From Arthrobacter agilis (GTDB taxonomy: Bacteria; Actinomycetota; Actinomycetes; Actinomycetales; Micrococcaceae), in the NCBI RefSeq assembly GCF_006494655.1, contig NZ_VHIM01000008.1:124001-188000 (forward strand): a DNA stretch of 64,000 nucleotides, given 5' to 3'. The notes beneath the pieces were generated by a model. The model was not told the DNA's origin. It ran no database searches and was given only the letters and a program-made list of their open reading frames with translations. Shown piece by piece: positions 30,009-62,936 of this stretch. Each line of letters opens with the position of its first letter. Position 1 is the stretch's first letter. The translations under genes were made by a program, and so were the position numbers.

Positions 30009-31369
30009 TGGAACGCCGCATCTTCGGTGTCGAGACCGAGTTCGGGATCTCCTACTCGGGGCCCAACTCGCGCCCGCTGTCCCCCGAGGAGGTCGCACGC
30101 TACCTCTTCCGCAAGGTGGTCAGCTGGGGCCGGTCGTCCAACGTCTTCCTCACGAACGGCTCCCGCCTCTACCTGGACGTCGGCTCCCATCCCGAGTACG
30201 CGACGGCGGAGTGCGACGACCTCGCGCAGCTCATCGCCCACGACCGCGCCGGGGAGCTGATCCTGGAGGATCTCGTCGGGGAGGCGCAGCGGAAGCTCGC
30301 CCAGGAGGGTTACGACGGCCGGATCTACCTGTTCAAGAACAACACGGACTCCGCGGGTAACTCCTACGGGAGCCATGAGAACTATCTGATCCCGCGCAAG
30401 CTCGAATTCGCGCGGCTCGCAGACATCCTGATCCCGTTCCTCGTCACGCGCCAGCTGCTCGTCGGCGCCGGCAAGGTGCTGAAGACACAGACCGGCGCCC
30501 TCTACGCCTTCTCCCAGCGTGCCGACCACCTGTGGGAGGGAATCTCCTCGGCCACCACCCGCTCCCGTCCCATCATCAACACCCGGGATGAACCGCACGC
30601 TGACGCAGAGCACTACCGGCGCCTCCACGTGATCGCCGGCGACTCGAACATGTCCGAGACCACCACGCTGCTGAAGATCGGCTCGGTGGACCTGCTGCTG
30701 CGCATGGTCGAGGCCGGGGAGCTGATGCGCGACTTCCGGCTGGAGAACCCGATCCGGAGCATCCGGGAGATCTCCCACGACCTCAGCGGTCGCCAGCTGC
30801 TGAAGCTGGCGAACGGGCGGCAGATGACGGCGCTCGAGATGCAGCGCGAGTACCTGGCCCGGGTCTCCGCCTTCGTCGAGCAGAACGGCGTCCACAACGA
30901 GCACGTGCCCGCGGTCCTGGACCTCTGGCAGCGGGTCCTGGATGCGGTGGAGACCGGCAACACCTCGGCCGTCGACACCGAGATCGACTGGGCCATCAAG
31001 AAGAAGCTGATCGACCGCTACCTGCTGCGCTCGGGCGGGGACCTCGATTCCGCCAAGGCAGCGCAGCTGGACCTGACCTACCACGACATCTCGCGATCCC
31101 GAGGTCTCTTCTTCCTGTTGCAGGCGCGCGGGGAGGCCGCGCGGGTGGTCGAGGAGACCACCGTCAAGGAGGCCGTCGACCTCCCACCGCAGACCACGCG
31201 CGCCAGGCTGCGGGGCGAGTTCGTCCGACGGGCCAAGGAAGCGAACCGCGACTACACGGTCGACTGGGTGCACCTCAAGCTCAACGACCGCGCCCAGCAG
31301 ACCATCCTCTGCAAGGACCCGTTCACGTCCGTCGACGAGCGCGTCGAGGCGTTGTTGCAGCAGCTGTGA
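30008..31369 (+). CDS. pafA: Pup-protein ligase PafA
   Basis: 453 residues. [22 protein letters not shown] at the N-terminus, [15 protein letters not shown] with the catalytic Asp, [23 protein letters not shown] and [23 protein letters not shown] for ATP/Mg binding, and a small C-terminal domain. It forms the isopeptide bond between the Pup C-terminal Glu and substrate lysines after phosphorylating Pup. Last gene of the continuous operon from arc; a 138-bp gap follows before the lipoprotein gene, which has its own TAGGCT -10 (31443-31448). Confidence 0.96.
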
Positions 31370-57926: not shown

Positions 57927-58211
57927 ATGAAGACCATCAGTACTCTGTGGCCCACGCTCGATCCCGCTGTCCGGCAGTGGTTGCTGCACAATCCGGGGAG
58001 CCTCGTCCTGCCCCGGACCCTCGTGAACAGGGTCGAGTCGACGACCGGGGAGGTGCTGAGCACCGACGCCCATGGAGAGCACCGGTTGACGGGCGACGAA
58101 CTGGTCTTCCTCCGGGCACGCCATCGAGCGGAGATGTTGCTGGGGCGCTCGGCATCGCCCTCCGGTACTTCCGGGCAGCCCGGTGTGCCCGTGGAAGCCC
58201 TGGACCGATGA
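57927..58211 (+). CDS. Conserved-looking small protein in the dormancy island
   Basis: 94 residues: MKTISTLWPTLDPAVRQWLLHNPGSLVLPRTLVNRVESTTGEVLSTDAHGEHRLTGDELVFLR is mostly helical; the tail is Gly/Ser/Pro rich. No known family. GGAAGG lies before the ATG. Its TGA overlaps the ATG of the next gene (ATGA), so the two form a pair downstream of box E. Confidence 0.6.
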   Translation: MKTISTLWPTLDPAVRQWLLHNPGSLVLPRTLVNRVESTTGEVLSTDAHGEHRLTGDELVFLRARHRAEMLLGRSASPSGTSGQPGVPVEALDR

Positions 58212-58648
58212 CCACGTCAGCCGCGCCGAAGACGGCCTCGTCCGCACTGCTGGACGGGGACAGCGTTCAGCCGGATGGCCCGCCCGCTGATACTCCGCCG
58301 ACGGTCCGCCGTCCTGACCGGGGTGCCGCGATGGCACAGCATCCGTCCTCGGTCGGTCAGAAACTCCAGGTCCTCATCACGGCTGACACCGAACTGAGGT
58401 CCGTGCGGATCATCGTCCACGGCCGCATGACGTCGGTGAACCTGCACGGGCTGGATCTGGTGGTCCGCCGGGCGGGCGCCCTGGCTCCTGGAAGTGATGT
58501 CGTCCTCGACCTCAGCGGGGCGCAGGCCTGGGAGTCGATCCGTGACGACGTGAGCACCACGGCCTTCGTCGTCCGGCTCGCGACGACGATGGGGGCTTGC
58601 GCACCACTGAACCTGCGGGTGGTGCCACCGCATTACCTGCAGCCCTGA
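58208..58648 (+). CDS. STAS-like (anti-sigma antagonist-type) hypothetical protein
   Basis: 146 residues. The first 45 are disordered (Pro/Asp/Thr). The remainder reads like a STAS fold: VRIIVHGRMTSVNLHGLDLVVRRAGALAPGSDVVLDLSGAQAWESI, with alternating strands and a DLSGA turn like that preceding the phospho-Ser of SpoIIAA-type proteins, but the Ser itself is not clear. Coupled to the preceding gene. It ends 69 bp before the dif site. Family assignment is tentative. Confidence 0.5.
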   Translation: MTTSAAPKTASSALLDGDSVQPDGPPADTPPTVRRPDRGAAMAQHPSSVGQKLQVLITADTELRSVRIIVHGRMTSVNLHGLDLVVRRAGALAPGSDVVLDLSGAQAWESIRDDVSTTAFVVRLATTMGACAPLNLRVVPPHYLQP

Positions 58649-58717
58649 GGCGTTCTCCGGGAACGACGACGGGAAAGGATGACTCGTCGGGAGCAGACCC
58701 TCTCGCTCCGACTCAGA

Positions 58718-58745
58718 AGCGCCGATAATCTACATTATGTCAACT
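58718..58745 (+). other. dif: Chromosomal dif site (XerCD resolution site), actinobacterial type
   Basis: 28 bp containing CCGATAATCTACATTATGTC flanked by AGCG and AACT. It agrees at 25 of 28 positions with the published actinobacterial dif consensus as I remember it (TTSRCCGATAAT-VN then ACATTATGTCAAGT). The inner ATAAT-CTAC-ATTAT dyad is perfect, with the 6-bp centre expected for Xer strand exchange. It lies in the gene-free stretch 58649-59011, directly before the recombinase trio. Confidence 0.8.
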
Positions 58746-58772
58746 AGAAGAGAACTTACTGCAGGATCTGCT

Positions 58773-58783
58773 GAATAGGACTC
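58773..58783 (+). repeat. Left copy of 11-bp direct repeat GAATAGGACTC
   Basis: GAATAGGACTC, 28 bp right of dif. The second copy is at 61958-61968, across the stop codon of the third gene of the trio. Candidate boundary of the element. Confidence 0.45.
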
Positions 58784-58961
58784 GGTGGTACGACTCCCCC
58801 TCGTCCTACTGCCTGGGCGCTGCGTTCCGCGTCGTTACAGGGATGTAGGGCTGTGGAGAGTTTCGGCTGGCGTCAGCGCCTTGGGTGACGAGGTTGATGG
58901 GTTGAGCGGCAGACGCAACCGGTGGTTCCGCGGATTTCCGAGGTTTCCTTGACGTGCGTTC

Positions 58962-58994
58962 GCATTTTATGCAGTCTGAGTGCATTATCTGCAG
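58962..58994 (+). promoter_or_regulatory. Tandem small palindromes before the recombinase operon
   Basis: GCATTTTATGC (58962-58972) and TGCATTATCTGCA (58981-58993) are two similar dyads about 20 bp apart, just downstream of TTGACG (58949-58954). They may be the operator of the HTH protein encoded second in the operon. Confidence 0.35.
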
Positions 58995-59011
58995 AGGCTT
59001 CGGAGGCCGTG

Positions 59012-60118
59012 ATGGACCCGTTGGAGGGCCGATTGATCAGGCTTCCGCTGCGGCAGGAAGCCGTCAGTGCGGATGCGGTGTTCGAGGACATGCTCACGGG
59101 CTGGAAGCAGCAGCAGCTGGCCCGGAACTTCACGGCGGGTACGATCCGGGGACGTGAGAGCCTGGTCCGTCGGTTCGTGGATTACACCGGGCGCTTCCCG
59201 TGGGACTGGACGGTCGGTGATGCTGATGAGTTCTTCGCTCATGAGCGCGCGATCCTGAATCTGGCCTTCGCGACGATCCGGGCGTATCAAACCCATCTGA
59301 AGGTGTTCTGCGATTTCCTGACCGATCCGGCCTATGAGTGGGACCGGATCTGTGAGCAGGGGTTCGGCCGATCCCCTGCCCAGATCATCACCGAGTTCAA
59401 CCGGGCCCGGCACGTGCAGAACAATGAACAGGCACCGGCGAAAAGGCCGTTTACCCGGGTCGAGCTGCAGGGGTTCTTCGATTTGGCTGATCTCGAGGTC
59501 GATCGGGTCCTGGTATCGGGGCGTAAGGGTGCGGTGGCTGCTTACCGGGACGCGACCGTGTTCAAGACCGCTTATGCCTGGGGGTTGCGGGCTAATGAGG
59601 TCACGCACCTGCAGACGGTGGACTTCTCCCGGAACCACCGGGCGCCGCAGTTCGGTGAGTTCGGTGTCCTGCAGGTCCGGTACGGCAAGGCGCAGCGTGG
59701 TTCCCCGCCCAAAAGACGCTCCGTCCTGACGGTTTTTGACTGGTCGCCCGAGGTCCTGGACACCTGGATTCGTGTTGGTCTGCCCTGGCTCACCCCGGCC
59801 GTGTCAGAGGTCTTTCCCACGGCCAATGGACTGCCGGTTCCCAAGTCCAACCTGCACCGCCGCTTCCGTGACTACATCGACGAGCTCGGCTATCCACCAG
59901 GGCTGGACATCCATTCCCTGCGCCGGTCCTACGTGACCCACCTTTTCGAGCACTTCGGCTTCGACCACACCTTCGTTCAACGGCAGGTCGGCCACGAACA
60001 CGCCTCGACGACCTCCCTTTATACGGCCGTTTCCAGCGACTACCAGACCAGTGAACTCAACCGTGTCCTCGAGGACATAATCGACAGGGCCGTCAGGCCG
60101 AAGGAGGAACGAGAGTGA
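59012..60118 (+). CDS. Tyrosine recombinase/integrase
   Basis: 368 residues from ATG 59012 with GGAGG six bases upstream. A SAM-like core-binding domain (about 25-125) precedes the catalytic domain with the full set: Arg193 in AYAWGLRANEVTHL, Lys near 226, His301 and Arg304 in HSLRRSYVTHLF, His328 in VGHEHASTT and nucleophile Tyr337 in SLYTAVS. It should cut and rejoin DNA through a 3'-phosphotyrosine. Not an ordinary XerC/XerD (about 300 aa). Its TGA overlaps the GTG of the HTH gene. Confidence 0.9.
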   Translation: MDPLEGRLIRLPLRQEAVSADAVFEDMLTGWKQQQLARNFTAGTIRGRESLVRRFVDYTGRFPWDWTVGDADEFFAHERAILNLAFATIRAYQTHLKVFCDFLTDPAYEWDRICEQGFGRSPAQIITEFNRARHVQNNEQAPAKRPFTRVELQGFFDLADLEVDRVLVSGRKGAVAAYRDATVFKTAYAWGLRANEVTHLQTVDFSRNHRAPQFGEFGVLQVRYGKAQRGSPPKRRSVLTVFDWSPEVLDTWIRVGLPWLTPAVSEVFPTANGLPVPKSNLHRRFRDYIDELGYPPGLDIHSLRRSYVTHLFEHFGFDHTFVQRQVGHEHASTTSLYTAVSSDYQTSELNRVLEDIIDRAVRPKEERE

Positions 60119-60453
60119 AACGGGATATCGAATACCGGTGGCGGGCCCGGGAACTGATGGCCCGGCACGGCATGCGCACGACCCGTGAGCTCGTGGGACC
60201 GCTCCGTGAACGGGGCATCACGCTCTCCGAGTCGCAGATCTACCGCATGGTCAGCCAGAACCCGGAACGGATTTCCTTCCAGCTCCTGGCTGCCCTCTGC
60301 GACATCTTCGGCGTCGAAGCCAACGAGCTGTTCACCTTCACTGCCACCGATGCCAGGTCCAAACGCCAGCAACAGGCCGTTACCTCCGGGGAAAACGTGG
60401 TCCGTTTCGCTGACGCATACAAACCCGTCCGGGCACGGATCCTTGAGGACTGA
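60115..60453 (+). CDS. XRE/Cro-type helix-turn-helix protein
   Basis: 112 residues from GTG 60115, with AAGGAGG seven bases upstream inside the recombinase gene. The HTH runs MRTTRELVGPLRERGITLSESQIYRMVSQNPERISFQLLAALCDIFGVEANELFTF, the common Cro/C1 arrangement with a final VEANELF. It probably represses the operon or acts as a directionality factor. Its 3' end overlaps the third gene by 11 bp. Confidence 0.85.
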   Translation: MKRDIEYRWRARELMARHGMRTTRELVGPLRERGITLSESQIYRMVSQNPERISFQLLAALCDIFGVEANELFTFTATDARSKRQQQAVTSGENVVRFADAYKPVRARILED

Positions 60454-61963
60454 ACCTCCCCCGCGTGGCCGGCCCCGGTCCCACGGCGAGCACCGGTGCG
60501 CCCGATGCGGGCGTATGGCAGCCAAAATCCGGGTGAACTGGCCAGACGGGCCCGTTTGCGGGATCTGCTTCACCACCGCCCTGAGAACCCAGGGAACGTG
60601 TGTCCTTTGCGGCGACGAACGACTGCTCCCGGGTAGAACCGCTGAGGGGGCAAACATTTGCCGGGACTGCGCTGGCATCACCACCACGATGACCTGCGAC
60701 GGGTGCGGCGCCGAAACCGAGAGGTTCCGTGCCGGCCGCTGCATCCGCTGCGTACTGAAGACCGACCTGGAACAGCTCCTGCACCCCAACAATCCCCCGG
60801 ACCTGCGCCTCAAACGCCTCATCGGTGTCCTAGCCGAGGCCGATCGACCCGAGAGCGTCTATACCTGGATGCGAGGAGCCAAAACCAGGTACCTCCTCGA
60901 AGGACTCGGCACGCGCACCATCGCACTCACTCACGAGGCCTTTGACGCCCTGCCCGGGTCCAGGTCCGTGGAATACCTGCGGGAACTGCTCATCCATCAC
61001 GGCATGCTCGAGGACCGGGACCGCCAACTCGCAGCCTTCGAACGCTGGCTGACTACCCGAATCTTGGACCTCGCCGGAACCCCACACATTCAGGCGCCCA
61101 TCGAACGCTTCGCCCGCTGGCACCACCTCAAACGCCTCCGCGCCATGGCCGCTCCAGAAACGGACCTGAACACTGCCGTGCGCTCCGCGAAGCAGGAAAT
61201 TACCGAATCCGGGAAGTTCCTCACCTGGCTCAACACCACCCACGGCCTGACCAGCACCGGCATACGACAGACCCACGTAAACGAATACCTCGCTACCGGC
61301 CCCTCGACCCGCCACGCCATCCGCACATTCATCGTCTGGCTCATGAAAAACAAGGACATCCCACAACTCGACATCGCGCACCGTTACGCCGCCACAACAC
61401 CGCTGATCACCCAGCACCAACGCATAGAACTCATCCGCCACTGCATCGAGTCCAACGAGCCGCCACTCACCTACCGGGTCGCGGCCCTGATCCTGCTGCT
61501 CTTCGGTCAGCCCGTCGGAAAGATCGCAGCCCTTAAATGCTCGGACCTCCAAGCCCTACCCGACGGGCTGCACCTGAACCTGGGCAACGTCCCCGTCCTG
61601 GTCCCCGCCCAAATCGCTCCCATGTTCTGGGAACACCTCCACCACCGGCCCAACCAACAGACCGGCAACCGCGGGAACCAATGGCTCTTTCCCGGCACCA
61701 TCCCCGGACAACACCTCCACGCCGACGCGATGATGGGGCAGCTCCGCGCCCTGGGCATCAACCTCAACGGAGCCCGCAACACCGCCCTGCGCGGACTCGT
61801 TCAGGAACTACCACCCACACTGGTCGCGAACGCACTCGGCTACAGCTACCAAGTCATCCACAAACACGCCACCGACGCCGGCACAACCATGGCCAGCTAC
61901 GCAGGAAAGATCACACACCCCACCCCAAACCCGTCCAAAGACCGGCAGATTGGCAGCGAATAG
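60443..61963 (+). CDS. Zinc-ribbon protein with degenerate tyrosine-recombinase domain
   Basis: 506 residues if read from TTG 60443, chosen because the first zinc CxxC (CARCGRM) lies upstream of the first ATG. Residues 19-103 hold at least four CxxC pairs (CARC, CGIC, CVLC, CRDC, CDGC, CIRC), so two or more zinc ribbons. Residues about 240-490 match a tyrosine recombinase, but the first catalytic Arg is replaced (QPVGKIAALKCSDL), the HxxR His is Asn442 with Arg445 kept, the GH motif is Gly-Tyr467 and Tyr486 is present (TMASYAGK). Probably an accessory or target-binding partner of the first recombinase. The stop lies inside the right 11-bp repeat. Confidence 0.75.
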   Translation: MRTEPPPRGRPRSHGEHRCARCGRMAAKIRVNWPDGPVCGICFTTALRTQGTCVLCGDERLLPGRTAEGANICRDCAGITTTMTCDGCGAETERFRAGRCIRCVLKTDLEQLLHPNNPPDLRLKRLIGVLAEADRPESVYTWMRGAKTRYLLEGLGTRTIALTHEAFDALPGSRSVEYLRELLIHHGMLEDRDRQLAAFERWLTTRILDLAGTPHIQAPIERFARWHHLKRLRAMAAPETDLNTAVRSAKQEITESGKFLTWLNTTHGLTSTGIRQTHVNEYLATGPSTRHAIRTFIVWLMKNKDIPQLDIAHRYAATTPLITQHQRIELIRHCIESNEPPLTYRVAALILLLFGQPVGKIAALKCSDLQALPDGLHLNLGNVPVLVPAQIAPMFWEHLHHRPNQQTGNRGNQWLFPGTIPGQHLHADAMMGQLRALGINLNGARNTALRGLVQELPPTLVANALGYSYQVIHKHATDAGTTMASYAGKITHPTPNPSKDRQIGSE

Positions 61964-61968
61964 GACTC
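61958..61968 (+). repeat. Right copy of 11-bp direct repeat GAATAGGACTC
   Basis: Same 11 bases as at 58773-58783. It is followed by CAAACCGATAAG, a partial dif-like arm (CCGATAA at 61972-61978). The left side also has GACTCA shortly before CCGATAA (58710-58728), so the two junctions look related. Confidence 0.45.
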
Positions 61969-62167
61969 AAACCGATAAGTCTCGTTCCCGCTTAAAGACC
62001 GAAAGCCCCTCTTCCGCTGTTGAAAGCACCTCTTCTCGCTGGTGAGCTCCGTAGCAGCCGCACCCGGACCGACGGTGCGCCAAAGCCCGGCAGACGCGCG
62101 ACGGCGATCCACCCGAGCGACTCATGGGACGCGGCCTGTGGCACGTGGTGCAGAGTAGCGTGAGGTC

Positions 62168-62737
62168 ATGGCTGAGTACCGGTACGACGTCGACATCCTC
62201 CATCTGCTCGTTTCTCCCGATCATGCCTATTTCGGGCGGGCGAAGGATGGCGCCGCCGACGTACCCACGGCGGATGCGGAGACCATCAACGTCGTCGCCG
62301 GCAAGGGAATTCTCGGTGACCGCTTCTTCGGGAAGGCCGCGCACATGGACGCAGCCGTGACACTGATGGCCGTCGAATCCCTCGAGGCGATCGCCGAGGA
62401 ACTCGGCGCGCAGCCGTTCGACCCCCTTCTCCCCCGCCGCAACATCATTCTGCGCGGCGCCGAACTGACACCCCTCATCGGCGAGGACTTCGTGCTCGAG
62501 ACACCGGCCGGAACCGTCTCCTTCCACGGAGGGCGTCACGCCCATCCCTGCGCCTGGATGGACCGTGTCCTGGCCCCGGGCGCCCACAAGGCCATGCGGG
62601 GTCGGGGCGGCCTGCGCTGCAGGCCGCTGACCAGCGGCATCCTGGGGCAAGGTCCAGCCGTCCTGGTCAGCCCGCTCCGGCTGGACCCCGCCAGGGCGCA
62701 CGTCGCGTCCGTGCTCCGTCCCGGACGCCTCCCCTGA
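62168..62737 (+). CDS. MOSC domain protein
   Basis: 189 residues. TINVVAGKGILGDRFFGK at about 39-56 and the beta-barrel segment RRNIILRGAELTPLIGEDFVLETPAG are typical; HPCAWMDRVLAPGAHKAM carries the Cys thought to bind molybdenum cofactor sulfur, and RGRGGLRCRPLTSGILGQGPAVLV closes the domain. Members handle Moco or act on N-hydroxylated compounds. It is the first gene right of the recombinase element; the 204-bp gap before it (61964-62167) shows nothing else supportable. Confidence 0.85.
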   Translation: MAEYRYDVDILHLLVSPDHAYFGRAKDGAADVPTADAETINVVAGKGILGDRFFGKAAHMDAAVTLMAVESLEAIAEELGAQPFDPLLPRRNIILRGAELTPLIGEDFVLETPAGTVSFHGGRHAHPCAWMDRVLAPGAHKAMRGRGGLRCRPLTSGILGQGPAVLVSPLRLDPARAHVASVLRPGRLP

Positions 62738-62831: not shown

Positions 62832-62936
62832 CACGGCGCGCGAACGGCGACGGTTGCACGAGCGAGGATCAGACAGCGAACACGGCGCGCGAACGGCGAC
62901 GGTTGCACGAGCGAGGATCAGACAGCGAACACGGCG
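62832..62936. repeat. 49-bp tandem duplication at the 3' end of the isochorismatase-like gene
   Basis: Two exact 49-bp units (62832-62880 and 62881-62929, each starting CACGGCGCGCGAACGG) followed by a 7-bp partial third copy that is the true end of the minus-strand gene. The unit includes the last codons and stop, so the gene's final codons are copied twice downstream. Confidence 0.9.

Follow-up and report, generated by a model that had tools for sequence, protein, structure and literature searches.

The window analysed here is a stretch of 64,000 nucleotides from contig NZ_VHIM01000008.1 of Arthrobacter agilis, and it contains an element of ~3.25 kb (about 58746-61994) that abuts the core of a dif site and carries three overlapping genes on the plus strand, referred to below as A, B and C, or together as the trio. 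An earlier reading of the window (the original prediction) had noted a dif-like site beside a recombinase trio, and both are confirmed: the three genes are present, and the dif core at 58720-58744 (+) agrees with its pattern at 19/19 specified positions. The G+C content is 63-64% in 58001-62000, compared with 67-73% in the rest of the window. Gene A (59012-60118, +) encodes a tyrosine recombinase of 368 amino acids (PF00589, E = 5e-13) with the full catalytic set R-K-H-R-H-Y, and all six catalytic residues are intact in 16/16 aligned sequences. Gene B (60115-60453, +), which overlaps A by 4 bp, encodes a Cro/C1-type helix-turn-helix protein of 112 amino acids (HTH_26, PF13443, E = 9e-12). Gene C (60443-61963, +) overlaps B by 11 bp and encodes a protein of 506 amino acids that combines a zinc-ribbon-like part with a tyrosine-recombinase fold.

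The start of C is most plausibly the TTG at 60443, since the ATG at 60515 would leave out a conserved CxxC that precedes it (L073, which contains a stop, and L045 were left out of this comparison). The protein has 12 conserved, zinc-ribbon-like cysteines, and residues ~213-486 form a tyrosine-recombinase fold from which most of the catalytic set is lost. No Pfam match above the cut-off was found for C, and a sequence-only search of the PDB returned no recombinase, only weak matches, many of them to zinc proteins; a fold search did find recombinase matches. In a structure alignment of 43 of the 63 C sequences plus the window, a tyrosine in the expected catalytic column is absent in all 42 readable rows of 44. 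Phage origin was rejected, as C has no match among 50,697 phage records, and so was a defence role of A, B or C, none of which has a PADLOC match.

Circular bacterial chromosomes have a conserved functional site, dif, and the one in the window, with the core CGCCGATAATCTACATTATGTCAAC, is an intact host site. It was scored against the pattern CGCCGATAAN6TTATGTCAAC, for which the background, a single base shuffle of the 388-kb test set, reached a maximum of 14/19. The core is made up of the left arm CGCCGATAA, the 6-bp centre TCTACA and the right arm TTATGTCAAC, and the two arms are called here, by analogy, the XerC and XerD arms, respectively. The 21-bp pattern is present in a single copy in 29/38 genomes of the genus and in zero copies in the other 9, and its reversed control has no match among the 38. 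In the window's own genome, a looser pattern matches only 2 further places, each with 2 mismatches. The pattern is single in 8/10 genomes of the genus of G163 and, with a looser centre, in 15/15 genomes of the genus of G225; a looser pattern is present in 121/245 genomes of the host family, Micrococcaceae, with 0 control matches. The dif of Frankia alni, given as CACGCCGATAATGCACATTATGTCAAGT in the available text of its description (PMC3025954), agrees with the pattern used here. The dif of the window is the chromosomal dif of its genus.

Because the window's own assembly is fragmented (3.24 Mb in 48 contigs, the window contig being 194.6 kb, with dnaA and dif on different contigs) and the GC skew across the window is flat and uninformative, the dnaA-to-dif distance in relatives was used for the position of the terminus. 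This distance is 49-54% of the chromosome-sized contig in 8/8 relatives measured (G104, G135, G152, G163, G174, G182, G207 and G225); outside this count are G031, G099 and G158 (~47-51%, sizes rounded) and G102, which is in 9 contigs (~44% of its largest contig). The terminus location expected by the original prediction is thus supported by the distances in relatives, and not by GC skew. Other contigs of the window's own genome hold a XerD gene scoring over the cut-off and a second Xer-like gene, taken as XerC, that scores below it; 6/6 genomes tested have two such genes elsewhere, one over the XerD cut-off and one under it. Further dif-like sites were seen on other contigs of many Micrococcaceae genomes (G212, G119, G225, G122, G175 and others). 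Some of these are surely on plasmids, with both empty and occupied examples, and a few are followed by a ATGTTGACG-type sequence (L269).

The left end of the element (58746-58805, +; boundary uncertain by 1-3 bp) contains a subterminal GCAGGATCTGC-like motif and the repeat GAATAGGACTC. In two A. agilis copies the block of identity begins 1 bp past the GTCAAC of the dif arm, and relatives carry similar left ends beside dif. The right end (61958-61994, +) consists of the repeat GAATAGGACTC, then CCGATAAG, and GTTCCCGCTTA as the final bases. At this point the A. agilis, G212 and G028 copies cease to align with the window, their following bases differ, and they end at the same or nearly the same GTTCCCGCTTA; the right limit, first set at 61978, is accordingly moved to ~61994. 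The 11-bp direct repeat first described at the right edge does exist (GAATAGGACTC, at 58773 and 61958), but it is present at both ends of the A. agilis copies also, and it is therefore subterminal element sequence; a target-site duplication was rejected. Likewise, the right-hand CCGATAA, initially read as a partial dif arm, is ACGATAA, GCGATAA or GCGATAG in related copies, so that it too is element sequence and a half-dif was rejected. Solo left ends raised the possibility of excision at the GAATAGGACTC repeats, which is not supported, as homology extends beyond the repeat. A GCATCWGATGC-like motif lies ~13-15 bp inside many left ends, and similar repeats lie upstream of A, where 58940-59011 (+), with two GCAT..TGC-type repeats, is the probable promoter and putative operator region of the gene. 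The subterminal palindrome was dropped as a strict test because shuffles often equal its score, and only the conserved motif and its position are therefore noted.

Distribution of the trio and its adjacency to dif

The trio family is mainly actinobacterial. C relatives are present in 71/245 genomes of the host family and in 241/72,556 plasmid records, foremost those of Streptomyces (108), Rhodococcus (57) and Arthrobacter (19). A genome scan with a profile of A matched at least 595 stretches, at least 492 of them encoding a relative, and the best 80 were kept; one of these, L191, comes from a metagenome-assembled genome labelled Acidobacteria. C lies downstream of A in 75 of these best 80 of at least 492, and the order A-B-C was found in every fetched locus where all three genes were detected, truncated and contig-end loci missing parts. 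The trio is common on plasmids and the family covers many genera. The suggestion that the locus might be a lineage-specific terminus module is not supported, because the family spans many genera and adjoins dif-like sites on plasmids. The window shares the features of the dif-adjacent members, i.e., the order A-B-C and a 19/19 dif directly outside the left end.

Adjacency was scored in 46 trio rows from 43 fetched loci and the window. In 30/46 rows a dif-like site scoring 16-19/19 is located at the expected place (shuffle maximum 14/19), and the spacing is nearly fixed: measured from where the C match starts, the site lies at -1677 to -1803 in 29 rows and at -519 in one row, an internally deleted copy. 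Among the genome-scan loci with at least 600 bp upstream, 33/62 have a dif-like site of at least 15/19, the rest scoring 10-14, and 32 of the 33 sites lie at -335 to -386 from the A match. No dif-like site of at least 15/19 was found in 55 control regions downstream, which lie ~0.4-0.5 kb past the right junction and so leave the junction itself outside the control. Within 700 bp on the far side of C, such a site was found in only 1/46 and 1/67 copies (L041 and L190), and none in the window.

Both sides of dif are used, by different clades. The side was followed on a tree of A built by a quick method and midpoint rooted, with 112 rows (100 of them different, some loci entering from two sources) and a long-branch warning; 48 rows are dif+, 10 are dif-, 35 have none and 19 are unknown. 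The ten rows with dif in the opposite orientation all fall inside one clade of 11, in which the element lies on the XerC-arm side, whereas in the other dif clades, including that of the window, it lies on the XerD-arm side. In L033, a single dif has a trio on each side. Among 52 chromosomal dif sites from three genera, two of which were picked for holding trios, A was found on the XerD side of 6, the XerC side of 4, both sides of 1 and neither side of 41; a stretch of up to ~1.5 kb on each side was covered and contig ends cut L088, L098, L099 and L137, so that the 41 are an upper bound. The dif-less rows are concentrated: 26/35 of them belong to a single clade of 32 rows, rich in Streptomyces and other mycelial genera, whose other 6 rows are scored as unknown. 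The expectation that homologues lie near dif thus holds in the dif clades and fails in this Streptomyces-rich clade. Its members share a left-end motif, GCCGCCAATTGCATCGGATGCGAACTCGCGAC, ~300 bp before A (L213, L218, L221, L216, L210, L227 and relatives), and a TTAGCGSTAA-like stretch, possibly another target site, is located outside this motif in some of them only.

Identical copies and empty sites

Identical copies of the element were found at different dif sites. Two A. agilis plasmids carry an identical 3260-bp block directly after two different dif sites. Three copies, identical across 3236 bp, are present in A. crystallopoietes (G163): the first adjoins the chromosomal dif (centre TCTACA), the second another dif-like site of that contig (centre CCTGCC), and the third a dif site on the plasmid pLDW-10 (centre TGGAGA). 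In G225, 3985 bp are identical on contigs C1 and C2.

Clean empty sites were observed for relatives of the window copy. When the flanks of the chromosomal copy of A. crystallopoietes are rejoined, they align through the junction to the dif of G175 (76%, 953 columns) and to that of G062 (77%, 949 columns), and A is absent from both of these dif loci. The rejoined flanks of the other two A. crystallopoietes copies match over 52-53 bp the flanks of plasmid-type dif sites of G175 (94%) and G122 (83%); the G175 site has no trio within the 5.1 kb fetched, and at the G122 site a trio occupies the other side. The insertion point is ~1-3 bp outside the dif arm, with no evident duplication. In L276, a ~0.3-kb deletion derivative (2527-2851) with both ends and no trio genes lies beside dif and resembles a miniature inverted-repeat transposable element.

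Interpretation and relation to known systems

The original prediction had proposed that the element may target dif with its own recombinases rather than with host XerCD. Trios occur beside dif far above the control, identical copies stand at several sites and empty sites exist, and judging from these comparisons the element is very probably self-mobile, its own recombinase A inserting it flush beside dif and leaving dif intact. A, expressed with B and C, would join the ends of the element by recombination to the outer margin of a dif arm, so that the element would land ~1-3 bp outside one arm of dif or of a dif-like site, with dif neither destroyed nor duplicated. Since the chromosome has dif and many plasmids have dif-like sites, circular replicons would offer a harmless landing pad, and plasmids could carry the element between hosts. 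As only one dif remains as a rule, XerCD/FtsK would have no second dif with which to excise the element, and the single intact dif would let the host keep dimer resolution. A presumably performs the strand exchange and is probably responsible for insertion in place of host XerCD, since its catalytic set is intact and far-side dif-like sites are so rare. C, an apparently inactivated recombinase with zinc ribbons, may act as a non-catalytic partner, either reading the dif arm or completing the synapse. B may repress the operon and/or shape the ends via the GCATCWGATGC-like sites. Movement would proceed through a circular intermediate, and the window copy presumably arrived by the same route as its relatives.

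Several observations weigh against this interpretation. Movement was not observed, mobility being judged here from the comparison of loci. For the window copy itself no empty site was found: the empty-site alignment on which the earlier claim was to be checked showed insertion for the relatives, and of 28 dif loci of the genus, none aligns with both flanks of the window copy. Compared between the window and G203, the sequence preceding the downstream gene scores 77.6 against a maximum of 74.1 in 200 shuffles, which is weak and partly due to gene sequence. Below the dif cut-offs are 16/46 trio rows and 29/62 genome-scan loci. At least 22 of these 29 belong to the Streptomyces-rich clade, and others are contig-end cuts or tandem or degenerate copies; L050, L182, L185 and L192, however, fall inside dif clades and are dif-less for none of these reasons. 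At several dif sites, no A homologue lies downstream of a left end that resembles that of the trio, which may reflect decay or something not understood, and non-autonomous elements moved in trans are a further option. Finally, comparison of the A and C profiles gave a weak link only, and C is not proven inactive, because it retains one invariant arginine and a nearly invariant tyrosine (Y486, 43/44).

Alternatively, the trio could be a dif-linked resolution system that serves dimer resolution of chromosomes or plasmids, comparable to XerS-difSL or to a plasmid resolvase encoded next to its res site. A recombinase gene at conserved spacing from dif would fit such a role, as would the frequency of trios on plasmids. 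However, C relatives occur in less than a third of the host-family genomes (71/245), a XerD gene and a second Xer-like gene are located elsewhere in all six genomes tested, identical copies stand at several sites while empty ones exist, and both sides of dif are used, even of one and the same dif in L033. We consider a resolution system very unlikely for these reasons. XerS, XerH and XerL differ likewise, in that they are the sole Xer beside dif, whereas two other Xer genes were found in 6/6 genomes tested.

An origin by host XerCD, which would have inserted the element at dif via a dif-like site borne by the element, hardly seems probable either. This is how IMEX integrate (CTXphi, TLCphi, GGI, EludIMEX-1 and LME-1), which, as far as the available text describes them, carry an attachment site resembling dif and rely on the Xer recombinases of the host (PMC5357621, PMC9765430). 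The trio element likewise integrates at the dif of the host chromosome, and L041 and L190 do have a dif-like site of at least 15/19 within 700 bp past C. Yet the element encodes its own intact recombinase, it is inserted outside the arm and not at the central region, and it as a rule leaves one dif; the far-side site is absent in 45/46 and 66/67 copies, and CCGATAA at the right end belongs to the element itself. The window element does not have the dif-like site at each junction that is a feature of IMEX.

That the dif-like sequence belongs to the element and moves with it, which would make adjacency uninformative on targeting, might seem suggested by the nearly constant distance between the dif arms and A, but it is extremely improbable, as identical elements have different dif centres, the chromosomal dif is single-copy, opposite dnaA in the relatives measured and mostly trio-free, and empty dif sites of both chromosomal and plasmid type exist.

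Like Tn554, RIT, GInt and strand-biased integrative elements (SEs), the self-mobile element proposed here is a recombinase operon, and it differs from them in gene content as far as their available descriptions go (PMC3414803, PMC10214605, PMC5385486, PMC8138268). The claim that it is unlike RIT and Tn554 is upheld on this ground, B being an HTH_26 protein and C lacking most of the catalytic set. The Tn554-related elements of actinobacteria encode recombinases of 611-828 and ~350 amino acids, both with a potential catalytic motif, TnpC being optional (Van Houdt 2012, PMC3414803, in the text available). These elements and the trio alike are small multi-gene tyrosine-recombinase transposons of actinobacterial plasmids and chromosomes with identical copies per genome. 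The trio is set apart from these descriptions by its order, i.e., A (368 amino acids, active set), helix-turn-helix protein (112 amino acids) and zinc-ribbon degenerate recombinase (506 amino acids), and it lacks two catalytic recombinases of which one exceeds 600 amino acids in the actinobacterial group. The term "dif site" does not occur in the main text of PMC3414803. The same text describes RitA, RitB and RitC of RIT as three recombinases that all have a possible catalytic motif. RIT and the trio share three overlapping genes that include recombinase-fold proteins, but in the trio one gene encodes a helix-turn-helix protein (HTH_26) and another lacks most of the catalytic set, with no tyrosine in the expected column of C in the 42 readable rows; three tyrosine recombinases with catalytic motifs are thus not found.

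In the portions available, GInts are described as four-gene ginABCD operons from proteobacteria, with examples in Bacteroidetes and Firmicutes, and SEs as intA-tfp-intB-srap in Gammaproteobacteria; the GInt insertion sites named there are gene ends and intergenic regions such as ssb (PMC5385486, PMC10214605). The likeness lies in recombinase operons with helper proteins and target specificity, and the difference, again by these descriptions, in the trio having three genes between its ends and no four-gene operon. In the open-licence literature, our searches gave no description of a recombinase trio adjacent to dif.

A more specific mechanism, which we regard as possible but doubtful, would have the zinc-ribbon protein C read one dif arm, possibly via bound XerC or XerD, and pass the site on to A. 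The choice of target would in that case be linked to the chromosome-dimer-resolution complex; clades would have become specialised for one side, XerC or XerD, and one of them would have abandoned dif on entering hosts with linear chromosomes.

If the self-mobile interpretation is true, a widespread family with its own recombinase and with dif as an unconsumed landing pad would be a different solution from that of the dif integrators that use host Xer, as these are described in the texts available. The trio family would supply a natural set of recombinases for asking how dif is recognised from either side, and it would identify the dif sites of actinobacterial chromosomes and plasmids as hotspots of insertion. 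The pair of an active and a degenerate recombinase would provide a testable model of why several proteins with a recombinase fold are needed by multi-recombinase transposons.

Genes and sequences neighbouring the element

Downstream of the element and outside it lies a host gene (62168-62737, +) with a homologue in 37/38 genomes of the genus, which we take to be MOSC-like, a putative family label. In G203, the same gene is directly downstream of a distantly related trio (C 35% identical), and in both the window and G203 the trio lies between dif and this gene. Among 17 relatives in the genus that have the gene and dif on one contig, the two are separated by ~3-47 kb in 13, and by more than 1 Mb in G099, G158, G182 and G245. 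The dif-proximal interval in the genus looks like an insertion hotspot.

Other genes were seen near dif sites. YhcG/DUF1016 PDDEXK nuclease genes lie beside dif and a trio-like left end in L281 (1358-2362, +) and L295 (1730-2791, -), and these YhcG-type nucleases correspond to the PADLOC candidate PDC-S02. An annotated PDDEXK nuclease gene is located just upstream of the trio on pLDW-10 of A. crystallopoietes (L297, 4606-5673), and dif may be a hotspot for candidate defence genes. A RES-domain gene (L278, 1241-2026, -) is next to a plasmid-type dif site, and an annotated RES-family gene (L031, 3000-3680) is near the trio on the A. agilis plasmid pAAG24-152. Elsewhere in the window, ARAGORN reports a tRNA-Val (gac) at 31117-31212 (-) that is not reported by Rfam at the gathering score. 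Two identical 47-bp copies lie at 62838-62884 and 62887-62933, 49 bp apart from start to start.

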